Assembly (NCBI GenBank): GCA_016839425.1
Contig: JAEOUI010000238.1
Coordinates: 1 to 16,312, forward strand
Source: Promethearchaeota archaeon
Lineage (GTDB): Archaea > Asgardarchaeota > Lokiarchaeia > Sigynarchaeales > SOKP01
DNA: 16,312 bases
Direction of reading: 5' to 3'
Of this stretch, positions 1 through 16,072 are shown one piece after another; positions within the stretch are counted from its first letter, which is position 1, and every line of letters begins with the position of its first letter. A program made the position numbers and the translations under genes. The notes under the pieces are model-generated. The model was not told the origin of the DNA and ran no database searches. It saw nothing but the letters and a program-made list of their open reading frames with translations.

Positions 1-966
1 AATTTAAAAAATGTTGCTGTTAAAATTCCCTTGGGCTTATTCACTTGTGTTACTGGAGTATCTGGGGCGGGAAAAACAAGTCTCATCATTGATTGCTTGT
101 TTAAAGGCCTACATAATTTAATTAATACAAGAAGTGCAAGAGTTTTTCCAGGAGAATTCAAGAAGATCATAGGACACGAACAAATAGACAAAATAATTGA
201 TATCGACCAATCGCCTATAGGTCGAACACCAAGATCTGTCCCCGCAACCTATACGAAAGCCTTGGATTACATACGGGAAATATTTGCATCCTTACCAGAA
301 TCAAAAGCTAGAGGCTACAAAAAAGGGCGTTTTAGCTTTAACACGACATCTGGACAATGCAAGAAATGCAATGGAACGGGATATATTTTGAAAGAAATGT
401 ATTTTCTCCCCGATGTTTATATTAAATGTGATTTATGCCAAGGTCTAAGATATAACTCAGAAACGCTTGAAATCAAATTTAAAGGAAATACAATTTCTGA
501 TGTTTTAAGGATGACTTTCGATCACGCTTGCGAGCTTTTCGAAAACTTTCCGAATCTTAAAAGAACATTGAAAACCGTCATTGAAGTAGGGTTAGGATAC
601 CTTGAATTAGGCCAATCTTCAACAACATTAAGCGGGGGAGAATCCCAGAGGCTAAAGATTGCTCGTGAACTCAGAAAAACGAGCACGGGAAACACATTAT
701 ACATCCTTGACGAACCAACAACTGGATTAAGTGCCTATGATATTAAAATTCTCTTGAAAGTTCTTCAAAAATTAGTAGACAAGGGAAATACGATGATAAT
801 CATAGAACATAACATGGATGTTATTAAATCTGCTGATTATATCATTGATGTCGGACCTGAAGGTGGAGAAAAGGGTGGAAAGATCATCGCGAGCGGGTCT
901 CCGGAAGACATCCTTAAATCAAGAACATCTCATACAGCAAAATTCCTTAAGAAATACCTTTCTTGA
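1..966 (+). CDS. uvrA: Excinuclease ABC subunit A (UvrA), C-terminal part, 5' truncated by window edge
   Basis: This is the second nucleotide-binding half of UvrA, the ATP-driven damage sensor of nucleotide excision repair that loads UvrB on damaged DNA. The reading frame is open to base 1 and already encodes UvrA-like residues ([12 protein letters not shown]) before the TTG at 31, so that TTG is not a start. Visible motifs in order (321 residues): Walker A GVSGAGKT near 19-26; [19 protein letters not shown]; a zinc module with Cys pairs CKKC and CDLC around residues 120-146 separated by the family's MYFLPDVY stretch; signature LSGGESQR; Walker [12 protein letters not shown]-loop IIIEH; C-terminal FLKKYL. 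The residue after TTGL is Ser, where most UvrA proteins have His. It ends with TGA at 964-966 and is followed by T-rich sequence. Family assignment is secure. Which UvrA subfamily it belongs to cannot be told without the N-terminal half. Confidence 0.95.
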
Positions 967-1092
967 TATTTTTAAAAAATAGTCATATTTTCTTCTTGTT
1001 ATCTACTATAAAGATTTGATTTTAATGGAAAAGCTAAGCATATAATTGATTTTTTTCTTAATTATTTTAATAATCATCTTCAACTATTTGTC

Positions 1093-2988
1093 TTGAAAAT
1101 TCTTATCTTAAGTCACTTCGATGCTCGAGTAGGTCCAGTACCTTTTTTATTCGCACCTAAAATTATAGATGAAGCAATTTTAAATCAGATACCGGATTTA
1201 ATGAATGTATTTGATCAAAATGGATTCTTCGTGCACATTGTTGGTGGATTCAAAAGCGCAAATTATGTGTTTGAAATACCTAATCCTCATTCGCGTGGAA
1301 ATGTTGAAATGCTCCTTATATCCATACTCATTACCGAAGGAGATCTCAATATTGAGCTATCAAAAGAACTCTTAAAAAGATTTTCCTTGGAGCTTAATAG
1401 TATCGATAGCGCCTATCAAGCGTTTTACCCAAAATCGAGTAAAAATGAGATAATTGGATCAAAATACGACGAAATTAGTGCTCTTTTCAATGCGTTCTAT
1501 GATTCATTTCCCGAAGAAAGTGTTATCAAGCGAAGAAAAGACGCTAAAATATTTGTTTTTGGGTTATCGAAAGCGGGAAAGACCACTATAATAAAAACTC
1601 TACAGAAGGCTGAAGTTAGTAATACCATTCCTACCACGAGTGTTGGAATTTCAAGAATACATTTACATAATTTATCAATATTGACATATGATGCACCTGG
1701 TCAATCAAAATTTAGGAATTTGTGGACGGATTACTTGGACAAGCAAGATGGACTGGTCTTTGTTCTCGATGCTTCAAGAAAGGAGAAATTTACAAACGCT
1801 CGAGATATATTACATCAGGTTGTAGATCAAGAATCAATGAAAAACCTGCCTTTATTGTTGCTTTACAATAAAATCGATTTATGCTCGCCTAATATCGAAG
1901 AAATCAACAAGATTTTAGAGCTTGATAGGTTAAAAAAAACCAAATTTAAAACATTTTTAACAAGCGGATTTAATATCTCAACAACTTCCGAGGCGTTTAA
2001 ATGGTTAACCCAACAACTTTTACCCTTAATAGAACCCTCTGAAAGCACTGCTTTAAATGAGGAAATCGGCGAAGGAATTATATTTTCTCGATGGGACGAT
2101 AATAGTGGGTTGGAAGTAATAGCCAGCTATCCACCCAACGCTTTTAGCGATCCTGAAGTTTTGGCCATTAACTGCTTTTCAATCTCTCAAACTATTTTTG
2201 GTGGAGATAAATTTAAAAAAATATCTGTTATATTTCCATTTGTACATTTAAAATCAAAAATCGCCATTTATTTTGATTATGTAGAACAACCTACAATCCG
2301 TGGGGGCAAGTTACCCCTTTCTATGTTGATTTCTTTCAATGAAGAGGTTCCTAACGATTTCATTCACCAGCTAGATTCCGTAGTATTTAACGAATTGCTG
2401 AAAATCAAGCCCCATTACCTTGAAAAAGATAATGTCAAGCACGACCTGGCAAGAATCTTTGAAATGATCAGCGAAATACTTAATTCCGGATTATTCACTG
2501 ATGGTAGCAGTAAAAGTGCTCCTTTCAATGAGAATTATGAGATGCCAATTCCAAAATTTAACACATTTCTAGAATATTTTAAAGCCTATGGAAATAAACA
2601 AGATATTCCATATCTTAAAGAAGAGCTTTCTTCATTTGACTATATTTTTCGTTGTTCGATATGTCAATCAGAATTTAAACAAAAAATGACTATCTTACAT
2701 CCTGCATTTCAATTGATCAAAGTTTGCCAAACATGTCTACACGAAATAACTATTGCTGACATAAATACTATATACCACTTGTTTTTAGCATATGGCGGGT
2801 ATTTTGGGATGAATAAAACACACGATATAAGCGAAGAGACAATAACTTTCTTGAGAGATGAGATTAAATCAAAAAAAAATGGCATTGATCCAATAGAGAG
2901 ACATGTTAAAGTATTCCATAAAGCCTTACTATTAGGTATTTATCCGGAACGCTTTAATAAAGAAATATTACCTTATTTAAGAACTTGA
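1093..2988 (+). CDS. Arf-like small GTPase embedded in a longin-like / zinc-ribbon multidomain protein
   Basis: A 631-residue multidomain protein. Residues 1-112 look like a longin/roadblock-type domain (starts MKILILSHFDARVGP). Residues about 150-312 are a small GTPase closest to the Arf/Sar group: P-loop GLSKAGKT (157-164), switch I PTTSVGIS (180-187), G3 DAPGQ (200-204, catalytic-position Gln kept), G4 NKID (259-262), weak G5 TSGF (290-293). The text FRNLWTDYLDKQDGLVFVLDAS mirrors Arf proteins. Residues about 324-440 look like a second copy of the N-terminal domain; both share a pattern ending in RG followed by a hydrophobic LLIS/SMLIS strand. Residues 521-548 hold two Cys pairs (CSIC, CQTC), a likely zinc ribbon. 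There is no signal peptide or membrane helix, so it is probably cytosolic or peripheral to membranes. The TTG start is chosen because the frame has no ATG or GTG upstream and the next Met (37) would remove the first strand. The next gene starts about 21 nt downstream, so they are probably co-transcribed. The exact role is unknown. Confidence 0.85.
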   Translation: MKILILSHFDARVGPVPFLFAPKIIDEAILNQIPDLMNVFDQNGFFVHIVGGFKSANYVFEIPNPHSRGNVEMLLISILITEGDLNIELSKELLKRFSLELNSIDSAYQAFYPKSSKNEIIGSKYDEISALFNAFYDSFPEESVIKRRKDAKIFVFGLSKAGKTTIIKTLQKAEVSNTIPTTSVGISRIHLHNLSILTYDAPGQSKFRNLWTDYLDKQDGLVFVLDASRKEKFTNARDILHQVVDQESMKNLPLLLLYNKIDLCSPNIEEINKILELDRLKKTKFKTFLTSGFNISTTSEAFKWLTQQLLPLIEPSESTALNEEIGEGIIFSRWDDNSGLEVIASYPPNAFSDPEVLAINCFSISQTIFGGDKFKKISVIFPFVHLKSKIAIYFDYVEQPTIRGGKLPLSMLISFNEEVPNDFIHQLDSVVFNELLKIKPHYLEKDNVKHDLARIFEMISEILNSGLFTDGSSKSAPFNENYEMPIPKFNTFLEYFKAYGNKQDIPYLKEELSSFDYIFRCSICQSEFKQKMTILHPAFQLIKVCQTCLHEITIADINTIYHLFLAYGGYFGMNKTHDISEETITFLRDEIKSKKNGIDPIERHVKVFHKALLLGIYPERFNKEILPYLRT

Positions 2989-3009
2989 AATCTTAGAAAC
3001 GAAAAATTG

Positions 3010-4281
3010 ATGAGAATGACTATAGCAAATAAGAAAAAAATAAACGACATCGCAACTGTTATGGAATTTCTTAATGATGTAATCCATATTCAACATGTTC
3101 TTCTTATAAACAAGGTTTCAAGTGCGTGTTTTTATTTCTGGAACAATAAATTTGATTCTGAACACTTTGCAAACCTTGAAACAGTATTAAACATTGTTTT
3201 AGAATTTGGAAATAATATTAACACACAACTAGCGATAAACAAGATTAATTTCGGTAACAATTGCAATGTTATCATTGCAGACGGAAGTTATTTTCGTATC
3301 GCTGTTAGCCAATCAAAGAAATCTTCGTTAATATTTCGATACAAATTATTAACGCTCCTAAAAATAATTGAAACTGAGTTTAAAGTCATTCAAAATGATT
3401 TTTCAATTGATTTTAAAAATTTTAACAAACTCGAGAGTATGTTTCAAAATCAACTTCATTTATCTTTACTTCTCGCTCATAAAATTAATTATAATTACGA
3501 AAATCTCGATAATCTTCTTAAATATGATTCTAAAAATGTAATTAATGTTGTTAATTCGCTCGTTCAAGAATATAAATCCCCTTTTTTTTTCATTCCAATA
3601 CTTATTCAAAGTATTTCCCAACGGACTGATTTGAGACACGAACAAATTCTTGAGGCACTTTTAGAACTTCAAAAATTACAAGTAATTCAACCGATAAAAA
3701 TTCAAAACAACTCAAGTTCTCTAACGAAAAAGCAACTTGAACTTCTACATAACTTAGAAAATTTAGACAATTTTTTTAATGCTCAGAAATTTGCGACTTT
3801 TATGGAATCTCGAACACCAATTGAAAGAGAGATTTATCTTTATACTCTGATTCGAAACAGAAAGATCGATTCGCCTCCAATTAAGGCTGATGAGGTGGCG
3901 ATTAGAATTAAAAATGTGAAACTAGCAAGAAAAACTCTCGAAGATCAAAAAAAAAAAATTAAATCTGCTTTCAATAAGAAGGATTTCGAAATTGTCAAGA
4001 TCTTATGCAATGATGCCATTAAAATCGCTTTCTATTGGAATTTAGGAGATAATTTAAAACATTTTATTAATATGAAACGATTAGTTAAGATCCAAGAAAA
4101 TATTAAAAAATTAAATCAAATTAAAGCAAAAGCTGAAAGTGCTCTAAATGCTGGGCACAAATCGCAAGCTTCTCATTATTTCTCCTTGGCAAGCGAAGTT
4201 GCCAATGTTCTATATAATCTTGGCTATTTAGAAATATATGACGAATTATGCATTCTCTCAAAGCAAAAATCAAATTTATAA
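3010..4281 (+). CDS. Longin-like domain protein with C-terminal TPR-like helical repeats (hypothetical)
   Basis: A 423-residue protein with no name I can assign. Residues about 25-127 show the strand/helix pattern of Asgard longin/roadblock-like domains: VLLINKVSSACFYFW, then a helix, then INFGNNCNVIIADG, then a long C-terminal helix. Residues about 190-235 could be a winged-helix unit (HEQILEALLELQKLQVI), which is weak. Residues about 305-420 are Lys-rich helices in two similar units, each with a pattern like A-hx-A-F/Y-x-L-G (FYWNLGDN and VLYNLGYLEI), suggesting two TPR-like hairpins for protein binding. I place the start at the ATG at 3010 rather than the TTG directly before it; another ATG lies at 3016. 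It follows the GTPase gene by about 21 nt. Longin and roadblock proteins often regulate or scaffold small GTPases, so a partner role is reasonable inference. The coding sequence is extremely AT-rich and holds a run of twelve A at 3947-3958, yet the frame stays open on both sides. Confidence 0.75.
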   Translation: MRMTIANKKKINDIATVMEFLNDVIHIQHVLLINKVSSACFYFWNNKFDSEHFANLETVLNIVLEFGNNINTQLAINKINFGNNCNVIIADGSYFRIAVSQSKKSSLIFRYKLLTLLKIIETEFKVIQNDFSIDFKNFNKLESMFQNQLHLSLLLAHKINYNYENLDNLLKYDSKNVINVVNSLVQEYKSPFFFIPILIQSISQRTDLRHEQILEALLELQKLQVIQPIKIQNNSSSLTKKQLELLHNLENLDNFFNAQKFATFMESRTPIEREIYLYTLIRNRKIDSPPIKADEVAIRIKNVKLARKTLEDQKKKIKSAFNKKDFEIVKILCNDAIKIAFYWNLGDNLKHFINMKRLVKIQENIKKLNQIKAKAESALNAGHKSQASHYFSLASEVANVLYNLGYLEIYDELCILSKQKSNL

Positions 4282-4327
4282 ATTCCTTATTTTAACTTTA
4301 ATAGAAAAACTCTAAATCTAGTATTCA

Positions 4328-4335
4328 TTTTATAA
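4328..4335 (+). promoter_or_regulatory. Putative TATA box of aIF5B
   Basis: TTTATAAT lies 29-36 nt before the ATG, the spacing expected of an archaeal TATA box for a transcript with a very short leader. It is called by eye only; AT-rich background makes false hits common. Confidence 0.4.
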
Positions 4336-4353
4336 TCCATAAATAACTTGTTT

Positions 4354-4360
4354 GGTGTGA
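4354..4360 (+). promoter_or_regulatory. Shine-Dalgarno-like GGTGTGA before aIF5B
   Basis: GGTGTGA sits three bases before the ATG at 4364 and resembles the archaeal GGTGA ribosome binding core. It supports that ATG as the start. The spacing is somewhat short. Confidence 0.4.
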
Positions 4361-4363
4361 AAA

Positions 4364-6169
4364 ATGGGAGAAAACACGATTAAAACGATTAGGGCTCCAA
4401 TTGCTTGCATTTTAGGGCATATTGATCATGGTAAGACTTCGCTTTTAGATTACATTAGAGGGACTATTGTCCAACAACGTGAAGCAGCGGGCATAACTCA
4501 ACACATCGGGGCCTCGTACTTTCCTTTAGAAGATATCAAGAACTTTCTCAGCAAATCCAGACCAGAATTTGCCCAAAAAGAGTTCCAACTCCCAGGAATT
4601 CTCGTAGTTGATACACCTGGTCACGCAGCTTTTATGAATCTGAGGAAGCGAGGAGGTGCTGTTGCTGATATTGCTATCTTGGTCGTGGATGTAACGGCAG
4701 GAACGATGCCAATAACCTGGGAGTCCGTGAGGATCCTTCGCGAGCGAAAAACTCCTTTTATCATCGCCGCAAACAAGATAGATCGCATTGCTGGGTGGAA
4801 GCCCACCAAGGATGCAGATTTTTTAGACACCTATAACAAGCAAAAGCCTCATGTCAAGGAATTTTTGGACGAAAAGATATATTCAATTATTGGAAATTTT
4901 TTGGAAGAAGGATTCAAGGATTGCGATGTCTATTACAAGATAAAGGACTTCACGCAAAAACTCGCTATTGTTCCTACAAGCGCCAAAACGGGCGAGGGGA
5001 TCTCGACTCTGTTAATGATTCTAATGGGTTTAGTACAGCAATATTTGACGAAAAACTTGAAATTTTCTGAAGGTCCAGCTAAGGGGGTTGTTTTAGAAGT
5101 CAAAAAAGAAAAGGGGCAAGGAAAGACAATGGATGTACTTATCTATGATGGTGTACTTAATAAAGGAGATGATTTCATTGTAGGTGGATTGGATGGTCCC
5201 ATCAAATCTAAAGTCAGAGCCTTACTCACACCAAAGCCGCTAGATGAAATTCGAGATCCAAGACAAAAGTTCGACACCGTGGATTTCGTGAGCGCTGCAG
5301 CTGGTATAAAGATTTTAGCACCGAACATTGACGAAGTAGTTGCGGGCTCTCCTTTTAAAATAGTGGGAGATCCATCTGAAGAAGAGCGCGTGTTTAAAGA
5401 AATCGAAGAGGAAGTTGACGCCATCAAGATCAAAACCGATAAGGCAGGAGTCGTGTTGAAAGCCGATACTCTCGGTTCGCTTGAAGCACTTGAAAACCAT
5501 TTCTCGAAAGAAGGCGTAAAAATAAGTATTGCCGATGTGGGACCCATTAAAAAAGAAGACATTCTTAACGCAGGTATTGTTCGTGGTTTCGATCAATATT
5601 CCGCAGTAGTATTAGGTTTTAATGTTCCTATACTACCTGAAGCCGAAGAACAAGCCTACAAGGACAATATAAGGATTTTCACAAACAATGTGATTTATCG
5701 CTTACTCGAAGATTATATCGAATATTCTGAAACTCGAAAAGCAGAGGATACGGCGAAAAAGTTAAGTGAGCTCATCTTACCTGCTAAACTGAAGATGCTT
5801 CCCGATTATGTGTTTCGAAATTCAAATCCCGCTGTTTTTGGTGTATCAGTGGAAGGTGGAACTTTAAAACCTAAAGTCATGCTTCTTACAGATAAAGCGA
5901 AAAAAGCAGGGAGAGTACACCAAGTACAAGATAAGGGACAATCTCTTGAAAAGGCAGACAAGGGATCTGAAGTTGCAATCTCCGTGAAAGGTATCGAAAT
6001 TGGACGAGATATTGAAAGAGATGAGATATTGTATGTTAGCCTTCCCGAATCACATGTGAGGCAATTGATGGCGCGCTTTCTAAATGAAATGACTACAGAT
6101 CAAAAAGAAGTTCTCCGTGACTATATAAAAATGATGCGAACACATTCGCATCCGTGGTGGGGAATGTAA
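4364..6169 (+). CDS. infB: Translation initiation factor aIF5B (IF2 family)
   Basis: A 601-residue GTPase that promotes subunit joining and initiator-tRNA positioning in archaea (homologue of eukaryotic eIF5B and bacterial IF2). G motifs are complete: GHIDHGKT (18-25), switch I GITQHIGAS (43-51), DTPGH (83-87), NKID (137-140), SAKTGEG (206-212). After the G domain come a beta-barrel domain II (GVVLEVKKEKGQG), domain III (VVLKADTLGSLEAL and KISIADVGPI) and the C-terminal barrel IV with GVSVEGGTLKP. It ends in PWWGM, close to the usual archaeal C-terminus. Length is normal for the archaeal form, which lacks the long N-terminus of eIF5B. No intein is present, although archaeal infB often carries one. 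Codon use is less AT-biased than in the gene before it, as expected for a highly expressed gene. It converges on the GH3 gene with a 13-nt gap. Confidence 0.97.
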   Translation: MGENTIKTIRAPIACILGHIDHGKTSLLDYIRGTIVQQREAAGITQHIGASYFPLEDIKNFLSKSRPEFAQKEFQLPGILVVDTPGHAAFMNLRKRGGAVADIAILVVDVTAGTMPITWESVRILRERKTPFIIAANKIDRIAGWKPTKDADFLDTYNKQKPHVKEFLDEKIYSIIGNFLEEGFKDCDVYYKIKDFTQKLAIVPTSAKTGEGISTLLMILMGLVQQYLTKNLKFSEGPAKGVVLEVKKEKGQGKTMDVLIYDGVLNKGDDFIVGGLDGPIKSKVRALLTPKPLDEIRDPRQKFDTVDFVSAAAGIKILAPNIDEVVAGSPFKIVGDPSEEERVFKEIEEEVDAIKIKTDKAGVVLKADTLGSLEALENHFSKEGVKISIADVGPIKKEDILNAGIVRGFDQYSAVVLGFNVPILPEAEEQAYKDNIRIFTNNVIYRLLEDYIEYSETRKAEDTAKKLSELILPAKLKMLPDYVFRNSNPAVFGVSVEGGTLKPKVMLLTDKAKKAGRVHQVQDKGQSLEKADKGSEVAISVKGIEIGRDIERDEILYVSLPESHVRQLMARFLNEMTTDQKEVLRDYIKMMRTHSHPWWGM

Positions 6170-6182
6170 AATAAATTTTGGA

Positions 6183-8294
6183 TTAATTCGATACTTTAAA
6201 AGTTCCCGATAAGCGAATGTCTCTTGACGAGCTACCGAGTAGAATTCTAAATTCTCCTGGTTCTATTTTCCACGATTTCGTATATTCATCGAAAAACGAC
6301 AAATCTTTAGGGCATAATTTGAATATAATCTTTTTATTTTCACCTGGTTCTAACTTTATTTTTTGAAATCTCTTGAGTTCTTTAATAGGTCTTGGAACGC
6401 TCGATTCAACATCTTGCAGATATAACTGAACTATTTCAGCTCCTCGACGATTACCCGTGTTTCGAAGTTCCATTGAGATAGATAATTCTTCCTTTGATGT
6501 GATGTCTTCTTGTGAAATCGACAAATCGGAGTATTCAAATGTAGTATACGATAAACCATGACCAAAACAGAACAATGGCTCAATGTTCTTCTTATCGAAA
6601 TGACGATAACCCACAAAAATACCTTCGTCGTATAAAACATCGTCGCGATCGTATTTAATCCTTAATTCGTTTTTATTTACGACAACATCTCCTTCTTTCA
6701 AGTTATTCCAATCTTTTATTCCTGGATATGATTGTAATGTGGAATGCGCTGGAGAATCTGATAATTTCCGAGGAAAAGTTATTGGTAATTTTCCAGAGGG
6801 ATTTACATCGCCAAAAATGATGTCTACCAAGGCGTTACCGCTCTCCATCCCTGCGTACCACGCTTGAATGACGGAGGGTACATCGTTTATCCAATTATCC
6901 ATGGCTACAGGGGAGCCACTGATTACAACAACGATTGTTTTAGAATTTTTTTTTACTGTTTCCTTTATGAGTTGTTCTTGTTCAGATGGAAGTTCTAAAT
7001 ATAACCTATCCTTGTTTTCGCAATCGTTAAACTTTTCGTGATTTAATCCAACACAAATTATCGTAACTTCGCTTTTTTCTGGAGCGGAAACGATCTTGAT
7101 CTTGCCCTTACATTTCAGTTTAAAACCTTCGAATGGTGTAATTTCGTATAATGTATTAACGGAAGAGCTCCCCCCTCCTGAAGCCATCTTCTTTTTAGCA
7201 TTTGGTCCCTGAATAGAAATTTTTTTTATTTCGCTAATATCTAACGGAAGCAAATTCTTTTCATTCTTCAAAAGAACAATCCCTTCCTGTGCGATTTTTT
7301 TTGCTAATACTTGATGCTCTGGAGCGTTGCGATATTTTTCAAAATCCCTATTTTCTTCTTCAAATAGTCCTACTAAAAACATGACTCGCAATAACCTCTT
7401 GAGGTTTTCGTCTATGGTTTGTTCTTTCAGAGTGCCATCTCTCAATAAATTCTTTATTTTTTTTGGATGGTAACAAAACGCCTGGTTTTTAGGGATCATT
7501 TTTATATTTCCAGGCATTTCGAGGCTCAATCCTGCTTTCATGCAACCTTTGGTGCTCGTAAACCTTGTAGCAAACCAATCTGACATTACGAATCCACAAA
7601 AATCCCATTCTTTTACAAGCTTATTTAATAGCAATTCTTGATTTTCACAACCATATTCTCCATTTACTCTATTATAACATGCCATCACACTCCAAACATC
7701 CGCTTCCTTAACGGTAGCTTCAAAAGCAGGTAAATATATTTCTCTAAGAGCTCTCTCACTTATTTTAGAATTGACTTCAAATCTATTAAACTCTTGATTG
7801 TTTGCTGCGTAATGCTTTGCGCAAGCAGCAATATTCTGGCTCTGTATCCCTTTTACAACCGCTACTGCCATTTTTTTATTCAGAAACGGATCTTCGGTTT
7901 GATATTCAAAGTTTCTACCGCATAATGGAGTTCTTTGAATATTAATCCCTGGTGCTAAGACTATATGTCGTCCGATAGATTTGGCTTCTCTGGCGAGGGC
8001 TATTCCAAACTGCTCTGAAAGTTCGACATTCCATGTTGCAGCCCTGCAGGTTGCAACGGGAAAGTAAGTCATTTTTCCTGCGAAGCGCACGGCAAAACCT
8101 CCAATTCCATGTGGACCATCGGTCATTTTTATAGGAGGAATATTTAACCTCTTTATCGATTTTGTCAAAAATAACTTTTGGCCAGATAATAACGACAATT
8201 TTTCGTCAAGTTTTAAACGATTCAATAAGTCTTGGACTCTTTCATTTAGATCCAAGTTTTTATCTCTAAAGGGGATTTTTTCGTTCTGTTCCAT
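6183..8294 (-). CDS. Glycoside hydrolase family 3 (beta-glucosidase-like)
   Basis: A 703-residue GH3 enzyme that removes terminal beta-linked sugars from oligosaccharides or glycosides with retention of configuration. The N-terminal barrel shows KMTDGPHG (57-63), RAATWN, GRNFEYQTEDP, the KH pair (160-161) and VMSDWF with Asp239 as the probable nucleophile. The alpha/beta sandwich domain follows (EGIVLLKNEKNLLP; GGGSSSVN near 373-380). Glu426 in CENKDR is the likely acid/base, matching the E-x-x-D-R pattern of the family. GDVNPSGKLPITFPR leads to a C-terminal fibronectin-III-like domain (about 610-703), a standard arrangement for beta-glucosidases. No signal peptide is visible, so it probably works in the cytoplasm on imported oligosaccharides. 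The substrate (glucoside, xyloside or other) cannot be read from the sequence. It is divergent from a winged-helix gene that may regulate it. Such enzymes are common in bacteria, so horizontal acquisition is possible but unproven. Confidence 0.93.
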   Translation of the reverse strand: MEQNEKIPFRDKNLDLNERVQDLLNRLKLDEKLSLLSGQKLFLTKSIKRLNIPPIKMTDGPHGIGGFAVRFAGKMTYFPVATCRAATWNVELSEQFGIALAREAKSIGRHIVLAPGINIQRTPLCGRNFEYQTEDPFLNKKMAVAVVKGIQSQNIAACAKHYAANNQEFNRFEVNSKISERALREIYLPAFEATVKEADVWSVMACYNRVNGEYGCENQELLLNKLVKEWDFCGFVMSDWFATRFTSTKGCMKAGLSLEMPGNIKMIPKNQAFCYHPKKIKNLLRDGTLKEQTIDENLKRLLRVMFLVGLFEEENRDFEKYRNAPEHQVLAKKIAQEGIVLLKNEKNLLPLDISEIKKISIQGPNAKKKMASGGGSSSVNTLYEITPFEGFKLKCKGKIKIVSAPEKSEVTIICVGLNHEKFNDCENKDRLYLELPSEQEQLIKETVKKNSKTIVVVISGSPVAMDNWINDVPSVIQAWYAGMESGNALVDIIFGDVNPSGKLPITFPRKLSDSPAHSTLQSYPGIKDWNNLKEGDVVVNKNELRIKYDRDDVLYDEGIFVGYRHFDKKNIEPLFCFGHGLSYTTFEYSDLSISQEDITSKEELSISMELRNTGNRRGAEIVQLYLQDVESSVPRPIKELKRFQKIKLEPGENKKIIFKLCPKDLSFFDEYTKSWKIEPGEFRILLGSSSRDIRLSGTFKVSN

Positions 8295-8543
8295 ATCTAA
8301 TCATCCATCTACTAATAATGTTAGTCGAATTTATTCAATATTTATTCTTTAATATATTAATCTCGATAAATAAATTAAAGTTCTAAATATGGGTGTATAC
8401 ATTAAATATTATATATAATTCTCAAGCAAAGGTAATTTAAAAAGCCCTTCATTTTAATAAATAACGCGGTTTAGGTCACAAATTAGTAATAATATTTATA
8501 ATATTATATCATAAGATAAAAATAAATGTCGTAGTTTGAATAT
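8295..8543. promoter_or_regulatory. Divergent promoter region between GH3 gene and winged-helix regulator
   Basis: A 249-base AT-rich non-coding stretch with promoters expected in both directions. For the minus-strand GH3 gene, a 12-bp palindrome (TTAATATATTAA, 8349-8360) about 55-66 nt before its ATG could contain the TATA box, and GGATGAT (complement of 8300-8306) sits five bases before the ATG as a weak ribosome site. For the plus-strand regulator, TTTATAATATTA (8495-8506) lies about 40 nt before the ATG, flanked by 8-bp arms ATAATATT/AATATTAT. I see no tRNA or coding sequence here. Confidence 0.5.
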
Positions 8544-9884
8544 ATGACAAGAAAAGTTGATTACAAGCAAAAAATTTACCAATGTATTCTAAATAATGGT
8601 TATGGGTTGACAGTTACAGATATAGCCAACGAAATCAACTTTAGTAGGAACACCGTCTATAAGTACTTGGAAATCCTTGAAAACGAGGAACTCATTTATA
8701 AAAAAAAAATTGGAATGTACACACTTTACTTCTCTCAAGAAGAAAACATATTAAACAAGGATCTGATTATTTCGTTCCTAAAAGGTCTCTTGTTGAATTT
8801 AAAAAACGCATTTCCAGAAAAAGGAGCAATGTTTCAAGAATTTGGAAGAAATATGGCAAAAACCATAAAGATTAGCTTTTCTGAAGATGATTTAACATAC
8901 TTTAAAAAACTCATGTACGAATCGGACGAAAAAATCTTAGAATCAATTGGTAATTACTTGCCTTATTTTAACCTCATCCACGACAGCGTCGCTGTATCGG
9001 AAATTTTCATCGATAAAAAAAATAAAAAAGCGTCAATAACATTCTTAAACTCCGATATGTTGGAACTTACAGACGATTATATTTATTATTTTTACCTCAT
9101 CGTAGGATTGATGGAAGAAACATTGTCTGAACATATAGGTCGTGATATCAAGTTTGATGTGCTTGAGTACGAAACATTTGATGTAAAAAAGAATAGTTTC
9201 GTTAAAATTTCTGTTGGCATTCAAGTAATGCTTCCCGATATTGAGATGAAAGATTATGACGAAATCATTTCAAAAGAATCTGAAATCCCAAACATTGATG
9301 TAATAAAAAAGACATTAAACCCTCAAACGCTTTCTTATGTGGTTCACGCGTGCGTTCTTGGTCAAAATTTGTTAATACTTAGCGAAAACGATGAAGTTAA
9401 AGCATTATTTATTAACTTCATCAGAACAATCTACAGCGATCTATTCGATATTAATTTTTCCGTCGAAAATTATAATTTCTATCAGAATAACAAGGCTCTT
9501 TACAAGGACTATATTGTCATAGGGGGTTCTGAAATAATTTACGATAAGAAAAACTTGTTAAATAAGCGAAAGATAAAAATTGAAAGCGTGATCGTTCAAC
9601 AATTCTTTAACGAGCCTTCTCCAGACAAAAGTTATTTTATGCTTAGAAGAGAAATGCAAAAGGCCTACATGCTTTCAAAGGAATTATCGGATATTATTTC
9701 AGCTTTCTTCAAGCAGAACGAGGAACCAAAGGAGATAGATTCAAAAATTATAACAGAAGCCTTGGAAAAGAAATATAACACGAGCATTACGACTTCTTAT
9801 TTGGCTTTCTTAGTAGATATTATGGAAAATTATTTTGGCGTTAGCGTTCCAAAAGTTTGGAAATTTTTCTTATTCCAACTCTAA
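8544..9884 (+). CDS. Winged-helix transcriptional regulator with V4R-like sensor domain (tentative)
   Basis: A 446-residue protein. Residues 5-65 form a winged helix-turn-helix: LTVTDIANEINFSRNTVYKYLEILENEELI followed by a short wing (KKKIGMYTLYF), as in ArsR/TrmB-like archaeal regulators. Residues about 75-228 resemble the V4R/small-ligand domain seen in some archaeal regulators: FLKGLLLNL, EFGRNMAK, YLIVGLMEETLSEHIGR and VKISVGIQV. This is pattern recognition only, and a Cys usually present near the end of V4R is absent. Residues about 255-446 (LGQNLLILSE, DYIVIGGS, then a helical end) I do not recognise. There is no ribosome binding site before the ATG, so the transcript may be leaderless or nearly so. 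It is divergent from the GH3 gene, which makes GH3 and its own promoter the first candidate targets. Confidence 0.65.
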   Translation: MTRKVDYKQKIYQCILNNGYGLTVTDIANEINFSRNTVYKYLEILENEELIYKKKIGMYTLYFSQEENILNKDLIISFLKGLLLNLKNAFPEKGAMFQEFGRNMAKTIKISFSEDDLTYFKKLMYESDEKILESIGNYLPYFNLIHDSVAVSEIFIDKKNKKASITFLNSDMLELTDDYIYYFYLIVGLMEETLSEHIGRDIKFDVLEYETFDVKKNSFVKISVGIQVMLPDIEMKDYDEIISKESEIPNIDVIKKTLNPQTLSYVVHACVLGQNLLILSENDEVKALFINFIRTIYSDLFDINFSVENYNFYQNNKALYKDYIVIGGSEIIYDKKNLLNKRKIKIESVIVQQFFNEPSPDKSYFMLRREMQKAYMLSKELSDIISAFFKQNEEPKEIDSKIITEALEKKYNTSITTSYLAFLVDIMENYFGVSVPKVWKFFLFQL

Positions 9885-9962
9885 TTACGCTTTCGGATCG
9901 AACACAAGGGAATATTGCTATTAAGAAAGATAATTTTTTAGGTTTCACTTCATTATAGGCAA

Positions 9963-9971
9963 TACATATAG
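9963..9971 (+). promoter_or_regulatory. Putative TATA box of cca
   Basis: TACATATAG lies 28-36 nt before the ATG at 9999, a plausible archaeal TATA position. It is called by eye and is weak evidence on its own. Confidence 0.3.
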
Positions 9972-9998
9972 TTATTTAATTCTTTGTTTGGATTTATA

Positions 9999-11450
9999 AT
10001 GAATTCTGTTGAGCAAGTGTTACGGAATGTGCTGGAGCAGATAACACCTACTCCCGAAGAAATTTATGTCGTTAACGAAGTTATAGATGTTATTTCTACT
10101 TTGTTAAAACAATCTGCAAGCGAATCGGGAGTACAAATTTCTACTATTGACCCACAAGGTTCCACGGGGATCAAACAAACACATCTAAGAAACGATTTTG
10201 ATATTGATTTATTCATTGGTTTAGATTATTCATCGTTTGAGTTGAAACACCCCGGATTGAGTAAGAACAAGAAAAAAAAAGAGTTTAAAAAAGATTTCTT
10301 AAAATTATGTAATGATTGGATCTTAAAATCGCTTAATCTTAAGCAATTTCGAGATCTAAACATCTTATACGCAGAACATCCCTATGTAAACGGAAGATTC
10401 ATAGATCCTGAAAAAAATCTTGATATTAAAATTGATGTCGTACTTTATTTTGACTTGCCTCTTGAATATATTAGAAAAAATGGCCCTATTACTGCCGTTG
10501 ATAGATCTCCTTGGCACGGACGGTTCGTTCGCGATAACCTTTCGTATGATCAAAAAAATGATGTGAGACTTTTAAAACAATTCTTCAAGAGTAATTATAG
10601 CTATGGAGATAAAAGTGCCCTCGGCAAGGGAGGCTTCATTGGATATAGCGCAGAATTACTGATATATCATTTCAAAAGCATTATCGATGTATTTCAAAAT
10701 TTTGAAGAATTATATTTGAGACCTTTGGATTACTTCAAAAGAGACGAGAAAAAAATTAAGTCAATTTACCATTTTCAAAACGATCCCCTTTTAATAATAG
10801 ACCCAGTTGACAAAAATCGAAATGTGGCATCAGCTATTTCGAAAAGGGCTTATAAATATTGTTGTAAAAGAATTAGCGAATTTTTGAATGCTCCTAGCGA
10901 AGATTTTTTTTTAATACGACCAATACCCGAAGATAAAAATTTAGATACCCCAAATTATTACATTGTTGAATGCAAAAATACAGATTCCAATGTTCATTAT
11001 ACTATCAATAGGGATAAATTGTATTCTTTAGCTGAAAGCTTGAAAAAAAACGGCGAAAAAGAATATTCTCACGAATCGCGTTTTGGGAAAATAGAGTTTG
11101 AAATATATTTTGAAAGTAAAATCGGGGAATTCAACATTGCCATATATTGTGAAGTTCCAACTATTTCTTCTACATATTTTAGAAGAGGTCCTTTGGATCA
11201 AGATACATCTCACGCAATAAAATTCAAGCAAAAAAATCAAAACTATATTACAAAAGACGGATATTTATGGGTTGAATCTAAGAGACAATTTTCTGAATTC
11301 CTTTCTTTCCTTACATTTTTCGTAGAAACTCGCATTCCCAAATCTTTAGAAATAAAAAATATCACAAAAGCTATCAATGTACAAGCTAAGTCTGCTAAAA
11401 GGGCTTTATATGTCTTAAAAAATTATGTTCTACCATATCTCGACGATTAA
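9999..11450 (+). CDS. cca: CCA-adding enzyme (tRNA nucleotidyltransferase, archaeal class I)
   Basis: A 483-residue enzyme that builds or repairs the CCA 3' end of tRNA from CTP and ATP without a nucleic acid template. The N-terminus (VEQVLRNVLEQITPTPEE) is typical of the archaeal enzyme and fixes the start at the ATG at 9999; a TTG five codons upstream adds only MFGFI. The nucleotidyltransferase core has GS (54-55), the metal-binding pair in DFDIDLF (Asp68, Asp70) and the third carboxylate in KIDVVLY (Asp146). Further family text follows: TAVDRSPWHGRFVRDNL, DVRLLKQFFKS and GGFIGYSAELLIYHF. The C-terminal part matches the tail and tRNA-binding domains (KNTDSNVHYTINRD, FRRGP). Length is normal to slightly long, with a Lys-rich insert near residues 88-98. 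It stands about 115 nt after the regulator gene and 48 nt before the corrinoid protein gene. Confidence 0.93.
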   Translation: MNSVEQVLRNVLEQITPTPEEIYVVNEVIDVISTLLKQSASESGVQISTIDPQGSTGIKQTHLRNDFDIDLFIGLDYSSFELKHPGLSKNKKKKEFKKDFLKLCNDWILKSLNLKQFRDLNILYAEHPYVNGRFIDPEKNLDIKIDVVLYFDLPLEYIRKNGPITAVDRSPWHGRFVRDNLSYDQKNDVRLLKQFFKSNYSYGDKSALGKGGFIGYSAELLIYHFKSIIDVFQNFEELYLRPLDYFKRDEKKIKSIYHFQNDPLLIIDPVDKNRNVASAISKRAYKYCCKRISEFLNAPSEDFFLIRPIPEDKNLDTPNYYIVECKNTDSNVHYTINRDKLYSLAESLKKNGEKEYSHESRFGKIEFEIYFESKIGEFNIAIYCEVPTISSTYFRRGPLDQDTSHAIKFKQKNQNYITKDGYLWVESKRQFSEFLSFLTFFVETRIPKSLEIKNITKAINVQAKSAKRALYVLKNYVLPYLDD

Positions 11451-11498
11451 ACTAAAATAATACTGAATAATAAACAAATCGATTGCGAATATTGGAGT

Positions 11499-12137
11499 AT
11501 GGAAAAAATTACACGAATGATTGTTGAATTGGAAATTGAAGAGATACAAGATGTAGTAAAAGAGGTCATTAAAGAACAAAATGTAGATTCTTTATCACTA
11601 TTAAGGGCAATAATGAGAGGAATGGAGGAAGTCGGTAAGAAATACGAGAATAAGGAATATTATTTAGCAGAGTTAGTTCTTGCTGCTGAAACAACAAAAA
11701 TTGCACTTGAAATAATTACACCAATTTTATCTAAGAATTTTAGTTTACAAGAAAGAGAAAAAATAATATTATGCACGGTAAAGGGTGATCACCATGATAT
11801 TGGAAAAAATCTACTTGGGACTCTTTTAAGGGTTTCAGGATTCCAAGTCATAGATCTTGGGACGGATGTGGATGCTTCTACGATAGTATCTACAGTTTAC
11901 AAGACAAATGCAAGAATAATTGCTCTTAGCACATTGCTAACGACCACAGCACCTCAAATCAAAAATATTCATGAAAAATTTAAGGAAGAGGGATTGAGGG
12001 ACAAGGTTAAGTTAATTGTTGGAGGTGCTTCAGTGAATGCCGAACTTGCTCGCCAATTTGGTGCTGATATGTATGGTGAAGATGTTCTTATTGGAGTCAA
12101 AAAAATAAAAAAATTATCAAATTTATTTTCTAGTTAA
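11499..12137 (+). CDS. Corrinoid (B12-binding) methyl-carrier protein
   Basis: A 212-residue protein of the methyltransferase corrinoid-protein family (MtmC/MtbC/MtaC, MetH B12 domain type). Such proteins carry a methyl group on cobalt between a substrate-specific methyltransferase and an acceptor such as tetrahydropterin or coenzyme M. Residues 1-80 are the helical cap domain (LLRAIMRGMEEVGKKYENKEYYLAELVLAAE split over several helices). Residues about 88-212 are the Rossmann-like B12 domain with KGDHHDIGKN (96-104; His99 should ligate cobalt from below), the Ser of LSTLL (144) and IVGGASVN (173-180), which line the nucleotide tail. No MtmB/MtaB/MtrH-like methyltransferase or RamA-like activator is in the window, so the substrate is unknown. 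It begins 48 nt after cca and could be on the same transcript. GGAG occurs just one base before the ATG, too close for a normal ribosome site. Confidence 0.92.
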   Translation: MEKITRMIVELEIEEIQDVVKEVIKEQNVDSLSLLRAIMRGMEEVGKKYENKEYYLAELVLAAETTKIALEIITPILSKNFSLQEREKIILCTVKGDHHDIGKNLLGTLLRVSGFQVIDLGTDVDASTIVSTVYKTNARIIALSTLLTTTAPQIKNIHEKFKEEGLRDKVKLIVGGASVNAELARQFGADMYGEDVLIGVKKIKKLSNLFSS

Positions 12138-12157
12138 TATTGAAAGAGATTTAATTA

Positions 12158-12174
12158 TTTTTTCTTCATCTTCT
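12158..12174 (+). terminator. Possible T-tract terminator after corrinoid gene
   Basis: TTTTTTCTTCATCTTCT follows the stop codon by about 20 nt. Archaeal RNA polymerase can terminate at U-rich tracts without a hairpin. This is weak evidence in AT-rich DNA. Confidence 0.3.
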
Positions 12175-12417
12175 TGATATCATTAGTTAAATACATTGAA
12201 AAAGTATATCAAGAATTATTTGTTAGTATATTTTTTTACTCGTTTTTTCAAAATTCGAATAATTAATCTGAAAAAACTCAAAAACAGCTCTTTTATGCGC
12301 TCATTAGTAAAATTTTTTAATTTTCTCGTATTTACATTGATCAATTTACTCTCGAAATTATGTAGTAAGACACAAATTATTTCTTAATTTTACGAGAATA
12401 AACAACTAAAATTGATA

Positions 12418-12422
12418 AGTGA
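12418..12422 (+). promoter_or_regulatory. Shine-Dalgarno-like AGTGA deciding the EF-2 start
   Basis: AGTGA lies five bases before the ATG at 12428 and matches four of five bases of the archaeal GGTGA core. This favours the ATG over the in-frame GTG at 12419, which falls inside the element. Confidence 0.35.
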
Positions 12423-12427
12423 ACATT

Positions 12428-14680
12428 ATGGTTAAAGTAAAAAACCCTGAAGAAATTCAAAACTTGATAATAAAGGGTTCGTACGAAAAAAAACGGATTT
12501 TCAGCATCGTAGCACACATTGACCATGGTAAAACGACCGCTTCGGACTACCTAATGAGAAGGGCGGGGCTCATGCGAGAAGAAGACGCAGGACAACTCCA
12601 GATGACCGACTCTGATGATGAGGAACAGGAGCGAGGTATTACGATATTTACTAGCGTTGTATTATTGGCTTTTAACGATCCTAGAAAACCGAAAGAGGAA
12701 GAACCGTATATATTTCAAATTAACGACACTCCCGGACACATATCGTTTACGGGAGAAGTATCTCGAGCGCTTCGAGGCAGTGATGGAGCCATTATATTAG
12801 TAGATGCTCTCGAAGGTATCATGACACAAACGGAAACAAACATTCGCTTGGCTGTTGGAGAAGAGCTATCCAAGCCCGTTCTATTCATTAATAAGGTCGA
12901 TAGGTTGATCGCAGAGCTCAAGCTTAAACCAGCCGATGTGTTTCAAAAAATCGACGCAATCACTAAAGAAATTAACGATCTCATCAAAAAAATCAGACCG
13001 GAAGGATTTGACTGGGGTGTTGATTTCGCCAAGAATTCCGTAGCCATTGGTTCGGCAAAGCATGGCTGGGGATTTACATATGAGATCTTGATAGAAAAGG
13101 GTCTAAAGCCCCAAAATGTCTTTGAAAAATACGCTGAAGGAGACATCCAATGGTTGAGGGAAACGCTTCCTTTGGACGAAAGCTTGCTCCGTATGGTCGT
13201 TGATCACCTTCCAGACCCTATTAGTGCTGCAAAATACAGGATTCCACACATTTGGAGCGGAGACCTCAATTCTGAATTAGGTCAATCTTTACAAAAAAGC
13301 GACCCAAATGGTCCGTTATATGGCATGATTACAAAGATTTTCTTGGATCCCAAGAAAAACTACCAAGCAACGCTCATTGGGCGTGTCTTTTCTGGTACTT
13401 TTGATCAAACAGACTCTATTTACCTCATTGGAAGCCGAGCTACAAACCGAGTCAAGAGATTGGGAGTTATGGAAATTACGGATATATTAGATGTTCCTAA
13501 AGTTCCCGCGGGGAATTTATTTGCGATGTTCGGATTTATTTGTCCGTCAGGTGAGACTTTTATGAACGCAGAGAATCTACCGAAGGATAAGGAAGAGCAG
13601 AAAAAGATTCCTTCGTTTGAAACCATCCAATACGCTTGCGAGCCTGTTGTATCCCGTAGCATTAAATCGAAAGATCCTCACGATATCGACAAGCTCACGG
13701 AAGTTGTTAGCAAATGGCTTCAAGCAGATCCTACGGCAGAATATCGAATGGACAAGGAGTCTGGCGAATTCATCTTAAGTGGTATAGATCCGCTCCAAAT
13801 TGAAATTCTCACCAAGCGTATCAATAATCAGGTTGAAATTGTCATTGGTGAACCGATTATTGTTTACAGGGAAAAAATTACGAAAAAAAGCAAGGACTAT
13901 CATACTAAGTCTGCAAACACCCACAATCGTATCTTATTATACATGGAACCCTTGGACGAACAAACCGAAAAATTGATTGAAACAGGTAGAATCCACGATT
14001 TACAGGACGAAAAAGAAAGAGCTGCTATTCTTAGAGACGAACTAGGCTGGGATGCAAAAGAAGCTCGTCGAATTGTTGATGTTTATCAAGGTAGCTTGCT
14101 TGTAAACGGAACTTCTGGTTTGCAGAGATTCGATAAAGTGAAATCTTATTTAGTTGCTGCGTTTAGAGATTGGCTTGGACAATGCATCCTTGCTAAGGAA
14201 CCCGCTGCTGGTATAAAAATAACTTTCACTGATATGACAATCCATGAAGATACAAGACATACGGGGTATGGTCAGATTGCAGGAATGGTTTGGTCGGCAA
14301 TGTCTTTGGCAATGCTCGACGCAGGACCTCATATATATGAACCCATTCAAAAAATCGATATAAAGACGCCTGAAGGAACTGAAGGTGGTGTGACCGGAAT
14401 CATCAACAAGCGCCGAGGAAGAATCTCTAATGTTATTCCTGAAGGAGAATATGTGCGAGTACAAGGACAAATTCCAGCTGCCGAAACGATTGGTATTGCG
14501 GACGAGATTCGGGGGGCAACTCAAGGGCGTGCCTTTTTTGGATACGAATTCTCGGGATTTGAAAGAGTTCCTGGAAGTTTGGAAGAGAAACTCATAATGG
14601 AGATTCGTAAGCGAAAGGGAATGCCAGAAGAATTACCCTCAGGTAAGTCCTGGGATAGATTTATCTACAAAAGAACCTAA
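12428..14680 (+). CDS. fusA: EF-2-family translation elongation GTPase, divergent (candidate aEF-2 paralogue)
   Basis: A 750-residue EF-2/EF-G family protein, the GTPase that moves tRNAs and mRNA through the ribosome. G motifs are intact: AHIDHGKTT (29-37), switch I with EQERGITI (66-73), DTPGH (100-104), NKVD (155-158). Domains II (YGMITKIFLDP; GRVFSGTF), III, IV (YLVAAFRDWL; GIINKRRGRI) and V (EGEYVRVQGQIPAAETIG) follow in normal order. Two hallmark motifs are altered. The domain III signature, usually SGMGELHLE, reads SGIDPLQIE (451-459). The diphthamide loop, usually HxDxIHRGxxQ, reads HEDTRHTGYGQI (606-617): the His at 611 remains but the next Arg and Pro positions are Thr and Tyr. The C-terminus also differs (ELPSGKSWDRFIYKRT). 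Codon use is less AT-biased than its neighbours, suggesting high expression. It may be the sole EF-2 of a lineage without diphthamide, or a second EF-2-like protein; the window cannot decide. Confidence 0.9.
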   Translation: MVKVKNPEEIQNLIIKGSYEKKRIFSIVAHIDHGKTTASDYLMRRAGLMREEDAGQLQMTDSDDEEQERGITIFTSVVLLAFNDPRKPKEEEPYIFQINDTPGHISFTGEVSRALRGSDGAIILVDALEGIMTQTETNIRLAVGEELSKPVLFINKVDRLIAELKLKPADVFQKIDAITKEINDLIKKIRPEGFDWGVDFAKNSVAIGSAKHGWGFTYEILIEKGLKPQNVFEKYAEGDIQWLRETLPLDESLLRMVVDHLPDPISAAKYRIPHIWSGDLNSELGQSLQKSDPNGPLYGMITKIFLDPKKNYQATLIGRVFSGTFDQTDSIYLIGSRATNRVKRLGVMEITDILDVPKVPAGNLFAMFGFICPSGETFMNAENLPKDKEEQKKIPSFETIQYACEPVVSRSIKSKDPHDIDKLTEVVSKWLQADPTAEYRMDKESGEFILSGIDPLQIEILTKRINNQVEIVIGEPIIVYREKITKKSKDYHTKSANTHNRILLYMEPLDEQTEKLIETGRIHDLQDEKERAAILRDELGWDAKEARRIVDVYQGSLLVNGTSGLQRFDKVKSYLVAAFRDWLGQCILAKEPAAGIKITFTDMTIHEDTRHTGYGQIAGMVWSAMSLAMLDAGPHIYEPIQKIDIKTPEGTEGGVTGIINKRRGRISNVIPEGEYVRVQGQIPAAETIGIADEIRGATQGRAFFGYEFSGFERVPGSLEEKLIMEIRKRKGMPEELPSGKSWDRFIYKRT

Positions 14681-14682
14681 AT

Positions 14683-14715
14683 CTTTATTTTTCTTTCTTA
14701 TTTTTTTCTTTACAT
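14683..14715 (+). terminator. T-rich terminator after EF-2-like gene
   Basis: Directly after the stop codon comes a nearly uninterrupted pyrimidine stretch with T runs of 5 and 8 bases broken by single C or A. This is the form of archaeal intrinsic terminators that need no hairpin. Confidence 0.5.
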
Positions 14716-14765
14716 TTATCTTATCTAATTTATAATTAGACCATTAATTTAAGATAAAAAATTGT

Positions 14766-14773
14766 AAAAAAAA
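14766..14773 (-). terminator. T8 terminator of the HAD gene (minus strand)
   Basis: Eight A on the plus strand read as T8 on the minus strand, about 24 nt after the HAD stop codon and just after a short imperfect stem (AGCAT/ACGCT). It is a plausible archaeal termination site. Confidence 0.4.
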
Positions 14774-14796
14774 GAGCGTGAAATGCTTCTTATTAT

Positions 14797-15507
14797 TTAG
14801 ATGTTAAATACAGTTTTAAGTTCCTTCGGCTCATCAATTAAAATGTCTGGATTGAGTTCTTTTAAAGCATTCTTTTTAGCCAAACCAGTTGCAACGGATA
14901 CAATTTTAACTTTTGCTGCCTTGCCCGCAAGGATGTCAGATGTCATGTCTCCAATAAAAACGGCGTTGTCATTATTCAAATTCCATTTTTTAAGTATCTT
15001 GAGGATACCTTCTGGACTGGGTTTGTTTTCGTTAACATCGTTAAATCCCACTATCACATTAAAGTATTTTTTAATGTTGTATTTTTCCAGTATCTCTTCT
15101 GCGTAAGTGCTCTTATTATTTGTTAAAACAGCTAGTTTTGTTTTTTTAGATAAGCTAGATAATAATCCCTCAATTCCTTCGAATAATTTTGCGCTCTTGC
15201 GGTATTCGTTAAATTGATTGAATAAAAACACCACTATCCTCATTTTTTTAAAATAACTCAGTCCTTCAAAAAACGAAGCGTCTTTTAGTAAGTTGTAAGA
15301 ATTTAGAATTATTTGAGGGAGCGGGTAATTTTGGACGTCTTCTAGGAGATGAGCAACTTCCTGAAGAGCATTGTCGAGATCGATATTCATTTTGTATTTC
15401 TCGACACCATCTTCAACTGCTTTGCGAATTGAGGGTCCAACATCGTATATCACGCCGTCTAAATCAAATATAATACCTTTGACTGTACTCAAATCAATTG
15501 TTCCCAT
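14797..15507 (-). CDS. HAD-superfamily hydrolase, phosphoglycolate phosphatase-like
   Basis: A 236-residue haloacid dehalogenase-like phosphatase. Motif I is FDLDGVIYD (nucleophile Asp15, acid/base Asp17), motif II VLTNN (Thr129), motif III NKPSPEG (Lys162) and motif IV GDMTSD (Asp187, Asp191). A helical cap (about 25-105) lies between motifs I and II, the C1-cap arrangement of phosphoglycolate phosphatase, beta-phosphoglucomutase and similar enzymes. The KPSPEGI and VSVATGL text is typical of Gph-type proteins. The natural substrate cannot be read from sequence. The ATG start at 15507 has no ribosome site, and a palindromic TATA-like element sits 16-41 nt upstream, which fits a leaderless transcript. 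The gene is convergent with the EF-2-like gene and divergent from L7Ae. Confidence 0.9.
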   Translation of the reverse strand: MGTIDLSTVKGIIFDLDGVIYDVGPSIRKAVEDGVEKYKMNIDLDNALQEVAHLLEDVQNYPLPQIILNSYNLLKDASFFEGLSYFKKMRIVVFLFNQFNEYRKSAKLFEGIEGLLSSLSKKTKLAVLTNNKSTYAEEILEKYNIKKYFNVIVGFNDVNENKPSPEGILKILKKWNLNNDNAVFIGDMTSDILAGKAAKVKIVSVATGLAKKNALKELNPDILIDEPKELKTVFNI

Positions 15508-15522
15508 GATGAATTGAATAAA

Positions 15523-15548
15523 TGATTAAATTAATTTTAATTTAATCA
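15523..15548. promoter_or_regulatory. 26-bp near-perfect palindrome over the HAD promoter
   Basis: Arms TGATTAAATTAA and TTAATTTAATCA are perfect inverted repeats of 12 bp around a 2-base centre. The element covers the place where a TATA box (TTAAAATT on the minus strand) would lie for a leaderless HAD transcript starting at 15507. It could be an operator that blocks the promoter, or simply a symmetrical AT-rich promoter. Confidence 0.5.
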
Positions 15549-15651
15549 ATTCGCAGATTTTTTTAAACCTTATTTCCTTGGACCTTGAAGCTAAATCGGA
15601 AATTTTATTTAATATCCTATACTATAGTATTCATAAAAATCAATGATTTAT

Positions 15652-15660: not shown

Positions 15661-15684
15661 CTTGATATATTGGAATGAGAAAAC

Positions 15685-16056: not shown

Positions 16057-16061
16057 TCCTT

Positions 16062-16066: not shown

Positions 16067-16072
16067 ATTCAT

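Follow-up and report, generated by a model that had tools for sequence, protein, structure and literature searches.

A putative Arf-type GTPase switch and a soluble, membrane-protein-tail-like neighbour in an Asgard archaeon

We analysed a 16,312-nucleotide stretch of a Promethearchaeota archaeon genome (contig JAEOUI010000238.1, positions 1 to 16,312; hereafter the window), in which two neighbouring genes encode a 631-residue GTPase (gene 1, 1093..2988, + strand, TTG start) and a 423-residue soluble homologue of membrane-protein tails (gene 2, 3010..4281, + strand). The reading we favour, to which we give a probability of just under one half (about 0.48), is that the pair comprises a self-regulated Arf-type switch and a soluble adaptor, derived from a receptor tail, that binds the gene 1 GTPase. 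Gene 1 would act as a signalling switch whose Arf-type G domain is controlled in cis by two longin-type domains and whose C-terminal CxxC module relays the signal as output, a position that PAS domains, often with a histidine kinase, would take in most relatives. Gene 2 would be a soluble adaptor that arose when a large Asgard membrane protein was reduced to its cytoplasmic tail, and would contact the GTPase via its longin/roadblock-type domain, much as such domains may do in cis in longin–GTPase fusions. We infer the binding of the two products, the direction of signalling and the output from the evidence presented below.

The longin–Arf–longin GTPase and its family

Gene 1 contains an Arf-type G domain (residues 145–313; 1525..2031, +), with residues 145–308 scoring over the Pfam cut-off for Arf. 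Its G motifs are complete and comprise the P-loop GLSKAGKTT (residues 157–165; 1561..1587, +), YDAPGQ, of which DAPGQ forms switch II and retains the catalytic-type Gln (residues 200–204; 1690..1704, +), and NKIDL, which holds the guanine-specificity motif NKID (residues 259–262; 1867..1878, +). The protein is not a classical Arf because the G domain starts at residue 145, behind a longin-topology domain; the N-terminal myristoylated amphipathic helix is absent directly before the G domain, and residue 2 is Lys, not Gly. Purifying selection is among the properties shown for the gene pair.

The secondary structure of the AlphaFold2 model follows the longin order b1-b2-a1-b3-b4-b5-a2-a3 on both sides of the G domain, in domain 1 (residues 1–140; 1093..1512, +) and in domain 3 (residues 326–465; 2068..2487, +). 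When aligned to one another with hhalign, these two domains score 22.8 over 102 columns, against a maximum of 20.4 in 60 column shuffles and 11.2 for a reversed control, and appear to be divergent duplicates. Neither domain matches a Pfam longin family at E≤1 or a roadblock family, comparison with PDB sequences gave no credible match, and profile comparison with the gene 2 domain or with roadblocks also gave none. The fold-search lists for the gene 1 model were taken up by the G domain and barely probed the flanks; given this and the absent Pfam and PDB sequence support, the label 'longin' for these domains rests on the order of their elements. A possible likeness of domain 1 to longins of the DENN/NPRL2 type was given no weight. 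C-terminal to domain 3 is a CxxC-x20-CxxC module (residues 521–548; 2653..2736, +), the spacing of which is identical in all seven long-tail proteins and which may bind zinc. A preliminary description, made from the letters of the window, had proposed an Arf-type G domain between two similar longin-like domains followed by a CxxC/CxxC module, and the Pfam match, the element order on both sides and the cysteine spacing bear out this architecture.

A protein search with gene 1 retrieved 51 proteins, 50 of which share a common core (the window's own included). Organism names were attached to 17 of the 51, every one of them Asgard, and a scan of GTDB species genomes yielded 17 family loci, all titled Lokiarchaeota, Lokiarchaeia, Sigynarchaeum or Sigynarchaeota; the proposal that this GTPase is specific to Asgard archaea thus holds for all labelled members. 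Within the phylum of the window's closest relative, a Lokiarchaeota metagenome-assembled genome (G001), matches at E≤1e-60 occur in 26 of 227 genomes, with scoring limited to five candidates per genome.

We reconstructed a tree from 45 of the 50 core proteins, dropping P0041, P0042 and P0046–P0048, which are short or have an incomplete N-terminus. PAS-type rows were sorted by length, and all but P0011, a partial record, carry a precomputed PAS domain. These rows, 32 of the 45, fall on one side of a branch with support of 100/99, the other side being made up of seven proteins with the CxxC module and six short-tail proteins. A precomputed HATPase_c domain is present in 18 of the 50 core proteins, and PAS domains, often together with a histidine-kinase ATPase, take the place of the CxxC module in most retrieved relatives. 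Domain 1 is also found separated from the G domain, either standing alone or preceding PAS-type regions (L029 and L030, domains assigned by eye), and in domain 1–Arf proteins of 310–328 residues (L049–L053). Two further proteins, at L031 334–2244 (637 residues) and L033 1375–3210 (612 residues), each contain two GTPase domains related to that of gene 1.

Gene 2 as a homologue of Asgard membrane-protein tails

A profile of gene 2 and its ortholog matches the tails of large Asgard proteins with E values down to 3e-58 and with nearly the full length covered, at sequence identities of 19–26%. Searching 227 genomes in six frames with this profile identified matches in 88 genomes at E≤0.01, the best of which are nearly full-profile and lie inside long frames. 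The idea that gene 2 is an orphan, suggested by the single relative found in initial searches limited to proteins of similar length, was rejected on the basis of these long homologues; the other frames of similar length examined, in G124 and G137, are family members truncated at contig ends. Neither gene 2 nor its ortholog has a hydrophobic segment, and gene 2 is placed inside a clade of membrane-anchored tails (support 98/95). The tail homology is well supported at the sequence level, where gene 2 is best described as a soluble derivative of a membrane-protein tail and not a receptor. The simplest history would be that a large membrane protein lost its outer and membrane-spanning parts.

Three regions can be delineated in gene 2: a longin/roadblock-type domain (about residues 10–130; 3037..3399, +), a middle helical unit common to the membrane-protein tails and winged-helix-like by eye only (about residues 140–235; 3427..3714, +), and predicted C-terminal helical hairpins that are TPR/MIT-like at best (about residues 290–422; 3877..4275, +). 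The preliminary description had taken the neighbour for a longin-like domain with TPR-like repeats. The first part gains support through relatives; for the second, TPR and MIT matches are weak and below cut-off. TPR_2 is detected in seven of 20 family members with a best E value of 0.0025, none over the curated cut-off, and two of these members score 13.7 and 14.8 bits (cut-off 27).

Gene 2 itself does not match the Pfam longin and roadblock models. Among 12 weak Pfam Longin matches in three genomes (G003, G125 and G094), four coincide with four of the 27 matches to the gene 2 family profile, with E values of 0.03–0.22 and all on weaker family members; one family member, of 144 residues, gives a weak Pfam Longin match (E=0.03). 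Compared with a profile of Asgard roadblocks, the family profile yields an in-order alignment of 85 columns that scores 24.9, and none of 60 shuffles exceeded 17.9. The longin/roadblock type of the gene 2 N-domain is thus partly confirmed through its relatives, with longin and roadblock not distinguished. A 252-residue protein at L204 341–1096 starts with a gene 2-type domain followed by a domain that appears roadblock-like by eye.

The 18 tail-bearing proteins that we examined span 836–3,031 residues, some being cut by contig ends or spanning masked bases, and in all 18 a hydrophobic segment lies 11–30 residues before the tail. Ten of them (1,553–3,031 residues) have an extra hydrophobic segment within the first 37 residues; three carry further hydrophobic segments, so that 'single-pass' fits most but not all. 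This arrangement suggests that the large proteins are membrane-anchored, with the tail in the cytoplasm, and that they may be receptors. G001 also encodes such an anchored member (L068, 1,573 residues).

With these tails added, and with no more than seven candidates per genome scored, the profile finds matches in 214 of the 227 genomes (E≤1e-6). Among the matches listed, at least 80 genomes have one of at least 200 positions, about 47 of these nearly full length. A hydrophobic segment lies just upstream in 34 of 37 further long-match members, and one of the other three is cut by a contig end. In 16 hand-chosen low-scoring genomes, most matches span only about profile positions 27–149, which correspond to the longin-type domain. 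We rejected the interpretation that 214 genomes encode a receptor tail, as proteins need only the longin-type domain to enter this tally, and many of them are soluble. As far as these profiles reach, the longin-type domain of the gene 2 family is nearly phylum-wide and the receptor form is frequent, and we claim the latter only for the members examined. A gene for a protein of ~230 residues lies upstream of many of the membrane-protein genes; in three scanned cases it encodes an ATP-grasp_5 protein, and we judged it to be unrelated.

A parallel is offered by another membrane protein, with about eight transmembrane segments, whose gene adjoins those of the short-tail GTPases of L005 and L008. 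Genes for this multi-pass protein are located at L005 5513–6346, L008 11538–12374 and L252 1504–2316, with further loci in L255, L258, L261–L263, L267 and L268. Hydrophobic segments of 17 residues number nine in L005 and five in L008, where the end is out of frame; Pfam gave no match for the L005 and L008 proteins, and NCBIfam none for L005. At the third short-tail locus, L017, which starts 315 bases before the gene, no multi-pass neighbour was seen. At E≤1e-15, the multi-pass protein has relatives in 23 of the 227 genomes, and in nine of these a profile search assigns a neighbour to the gene 1 core or to the gene 2 family; G001 adds a neighbour that is longin-like by eye. Stand-alone domain 1 is the neighbour in six genomes, and the C-termini of several partners carry similar short peptides (DDFxxKF, HDFASKF or KKFKKFxW, by eye). 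Gene order suggests that Asgard membrane proteins have longin-type domains of both kinds as partners.

Links between the two genes and competing explanations

The case for contact between gene 2-type domains and GTPases draws on fusions and on gene order. Four open reading frames (ORFs) fuse the gene 2-type domain to a GTPase, N-terminally in L199, L200 and L201 and C-terminally in L237 (GTPase at residues 12–178, gene 2-type domain at 192–296). Across three genomes, a same-strand GTPase is found no more than 1 kb away from five of 27 family matches, three of which are such fusions; the expected number is 0.63, and none of 2,000 random placements reached five. Two anchored members have GTPase genes close by on the same strand: at L218 one begins 33 nt downstream, and at L206 239–4248 two small GTPase genes, with a small ORF between them, lie upstream of a gene for a 757-residue protein with a gene 2-type tail.

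In the window, gene 2 begins 21 nt after gene 1 (spacer 2989..3009, +; gene 2 has an alternative TTG start at 3007). The closest relative, contig JAFGGO010000015.1 of G001 (L001, the same place as L018), preserves this arrangement, with orthologs on the same strand and a stop-to-start distance of 19 nt to the annotated GTG or 13 nt to an earlier GTG. Protein identity between the window and L001 ranges from 57% for gene 2 to 95% for aIF5B. Among the 227 genomes, a long-tail GTPase and a soluble full-length tail protein occur together in one, G001, and neither was seen alone among the matches examined.

Several results weigh against an adaptor that binds the gene 1 GTPase. A phmmer search of the ORFs of all loci found gene 2 only in the window and L001; it is absent near the 16 other family loci (L002–L017, with flanks of varying length). 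The adjacency is therefore confined to two genomes, and because at least eight consecutive genes are syntenic between them, it is weak as functional evidence. The notion of a neighbour dedicated to this GTPase is not supported by this comparison, in which a lack of conservation, named in the preliminary description as grounds for abandoning its proposal, is largely what was found. Nor does the pair form a self-contained switch: gene 2 is soluble and related to membrane-protein tails, and PAS and kinase domains are the more frequent fusion partners of the GTPase core. Once fusions are excluded, only two of 24 matches have a GTPase within 1 kb, one of which (L202) was not recovered in a local check at E<0.01. 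A general GTPase neighbourhood of the membrane-protein genes was considered and rejected, as a wider survey found GTPases in eight of 20 regions against five of 19 controls, which is no enrichment; in seven of the eight the arrangement is the same, with a convergent GTPase 1.5–4.6 kb past the 3' end, and these are probably one inherited neighbourhood. The branch leading to gene 2 is long (2.8 changes per site) and its composition unusual, making its position in the tree less sure and leaving room for drift in function. Structure prediction, which supplied the longin order on both flanks of gene 1, was of little help for gene 2, whose model has a predicted local distance difference test (pLDDT) score of 47, with about 30–37 in the N-domain (two-row alignment). 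Finally, in the 16 low-scoring genomes, 23 of 32 domain ORFs (from 30 loci, two overlapping loci being counted twice) lack a hydrophobic segment within the 95 residues upstream, as opposed to nine with one; soluble members are common, so the domain alone is no sign of a receptor.

The same soluble proteins bear on a broader scheme that we entertain as tentative and rather doubtful, namely a widespread Asgard membrane-sensing system in which large anchored proteins and proteins of about eight transmembrane segments would act through longin-type cytoplasmic domains on Arf/Rag-type GTPases, with the GTPase placed within a PAS/histidine-kinase chain in some lineages and the window representing a soluble branch. 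That so many domain proteins of the low-scoring genomes are soluble makes this scheme, and slightly also the adaptor reading, less likely.

Three other explanations of the pair were weighed. It is possible, if on the unlikely side, that the genes are adjacent by descent only, kept together by short evolutionary distance, and that gene 2 serves another GTPase or process. The synteny around the pair in the sole other genome that has it and the lack of a general GTPase neighbourhood for anchored members both fit this explanation; it accounts less readily for the short same-strand spacing in both genomes, for the GTPase-regulating type of both proteins and for the presence of both partners in the same single genome of 227. 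Homology over nearly the whole tail, together with the anchored L068 encoded by G001, would also suit a gene 2 product that competes with the large membrane proteins, drawing off GTPases or other cytoplasmic partners independently of gene 1. We consider such a competitor improbable, since the low identity to the tails and the long branch make shared partners uncertain and the tight linkage to gene 1 would go unexplained. That the gene 1 flanks and the gene 2 domain are unrelated α/β folds merely resembling longin, the GTPase simply having other extra domains, we regard as very improbable: the missing Pfam and PDB matches for domains 1 and 3 and a fold search filled by the G domain speak for it, but the longin order is predicted twice over, domains 1 and 3 are alike, and relatives of gene 2 match Pfam Longin weakly yet repeatedly. 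The combination of a self-regulated switch and a tail-derived adaptor remains the reading that we prefer.

Elsewhere in the window, the gene content comprises uvrA (cut), genes 1 and 2, aIF5B, a family-3 glycosidase, a helix-turn-helix protein, a CCA-type tRNA nucleotidyltransferase, a B12-binding protein, EF-2, a HAD hydrolase, L7Ae and S28e. The helix-turn-helix protein (8544–9884, 446 residues) is 92% identical to its L001 counterpart, similar to uvrA (93%) and far above genes 1 and 2, and the tRNA nucleotidyltransferase (9984–11450) scores 195 bits against the TIGR03671 cut-off of 281 bits, indicating a divergent version. An Rfam scan of the window gave no match, and no relative was found in a collection of viral sequences.

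Comparison with known systems

Asgard archaea are the closest relatives of eukaryotes, and the gene pair hints at how surface sensing may be wired to eukaryote-like switches. If longin-type domains indeed serve both as receptor tails and in cis on GTPases, they would provide a concrete route from the cell surface to the switch in Asgards, ending on the switch proteins that later served membrane traffic and nutrient sensing in eukaryotes. Longin–GTPase fusions and kinase–roadblock–GTPase operons are known. Receptor-tail proteins and GTPase–PAS–kinase chains were not found reported in the mainly open-access literature covered; the word GTPase is absent from the main text of two papers on archaeal or Asgard sensor kinases (PMC10343646, PMC5847659).

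Relative to the eukaryotic Arf family, the gene 1 G domain is internal, lacks the N-terminal myristoylated helix and has longin-topology flanks. Eukaryotic Rag GTPases carry a further domain of roadblock type. Rag/Gtr GTPases and the LokiRagO/LokiRagM structures recovered as Foldseek matches (8yl2, 8zla) resemble gene 1 in joining a small GTPase to a further domain, whereas Pfam assigns the G domain of gene 1 to Arf and a longin-topology domain stands on either side of it. Closer parallels come from the Asgard archaeon MK-D1, for which GTPases fused to longin or roadblock domains have been described, including a GTPase between a longin and a roadblock domain (PMC10933270). These fusions, with Arf-annotated and Rag-like members, share the joining of a GTPase with longin/roadblock domains; a CxxC module, a PAS/kinase output and a receptor-tail partner are not reported in the passages of that paper considered, according to which MK-D1 GTPase genes generally lie outside operons with roadblock, longin or TRAPPC3 genes.

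Bacterial conservons bring together a kinase, a roadblock protein and a GTPase as separate genes, as described in the available portions of two sources (PMC13343842, PMC4316618). The full set of conservons, or actinobacterial G protein systems, comprises a histidine kinase, an MglB-type roadblock protein, CvnC and an MglA-type GTPase, and is not what the window pair represents, as neither a kinase nor a Pfam roadblock was found among the 12 window proteins scanned. The likeness to the Asgard family is one of working principle only, in that a histidine kinase, a roadblock protein and a small GTPase form one unit. Conservons distribute these parts over separate genes and, so far as those sources describe them, use an MglA-type GTPase, while the Asgard relatives of gene 1 place an Arf-type GTPase, longin-topology domains, PAS domains and a kinase in one chain. 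Such a chain, with its longin pair and PAS/histidine-kinase region, would join eukaryote-type and prokaryote-type signalling in a single protein.

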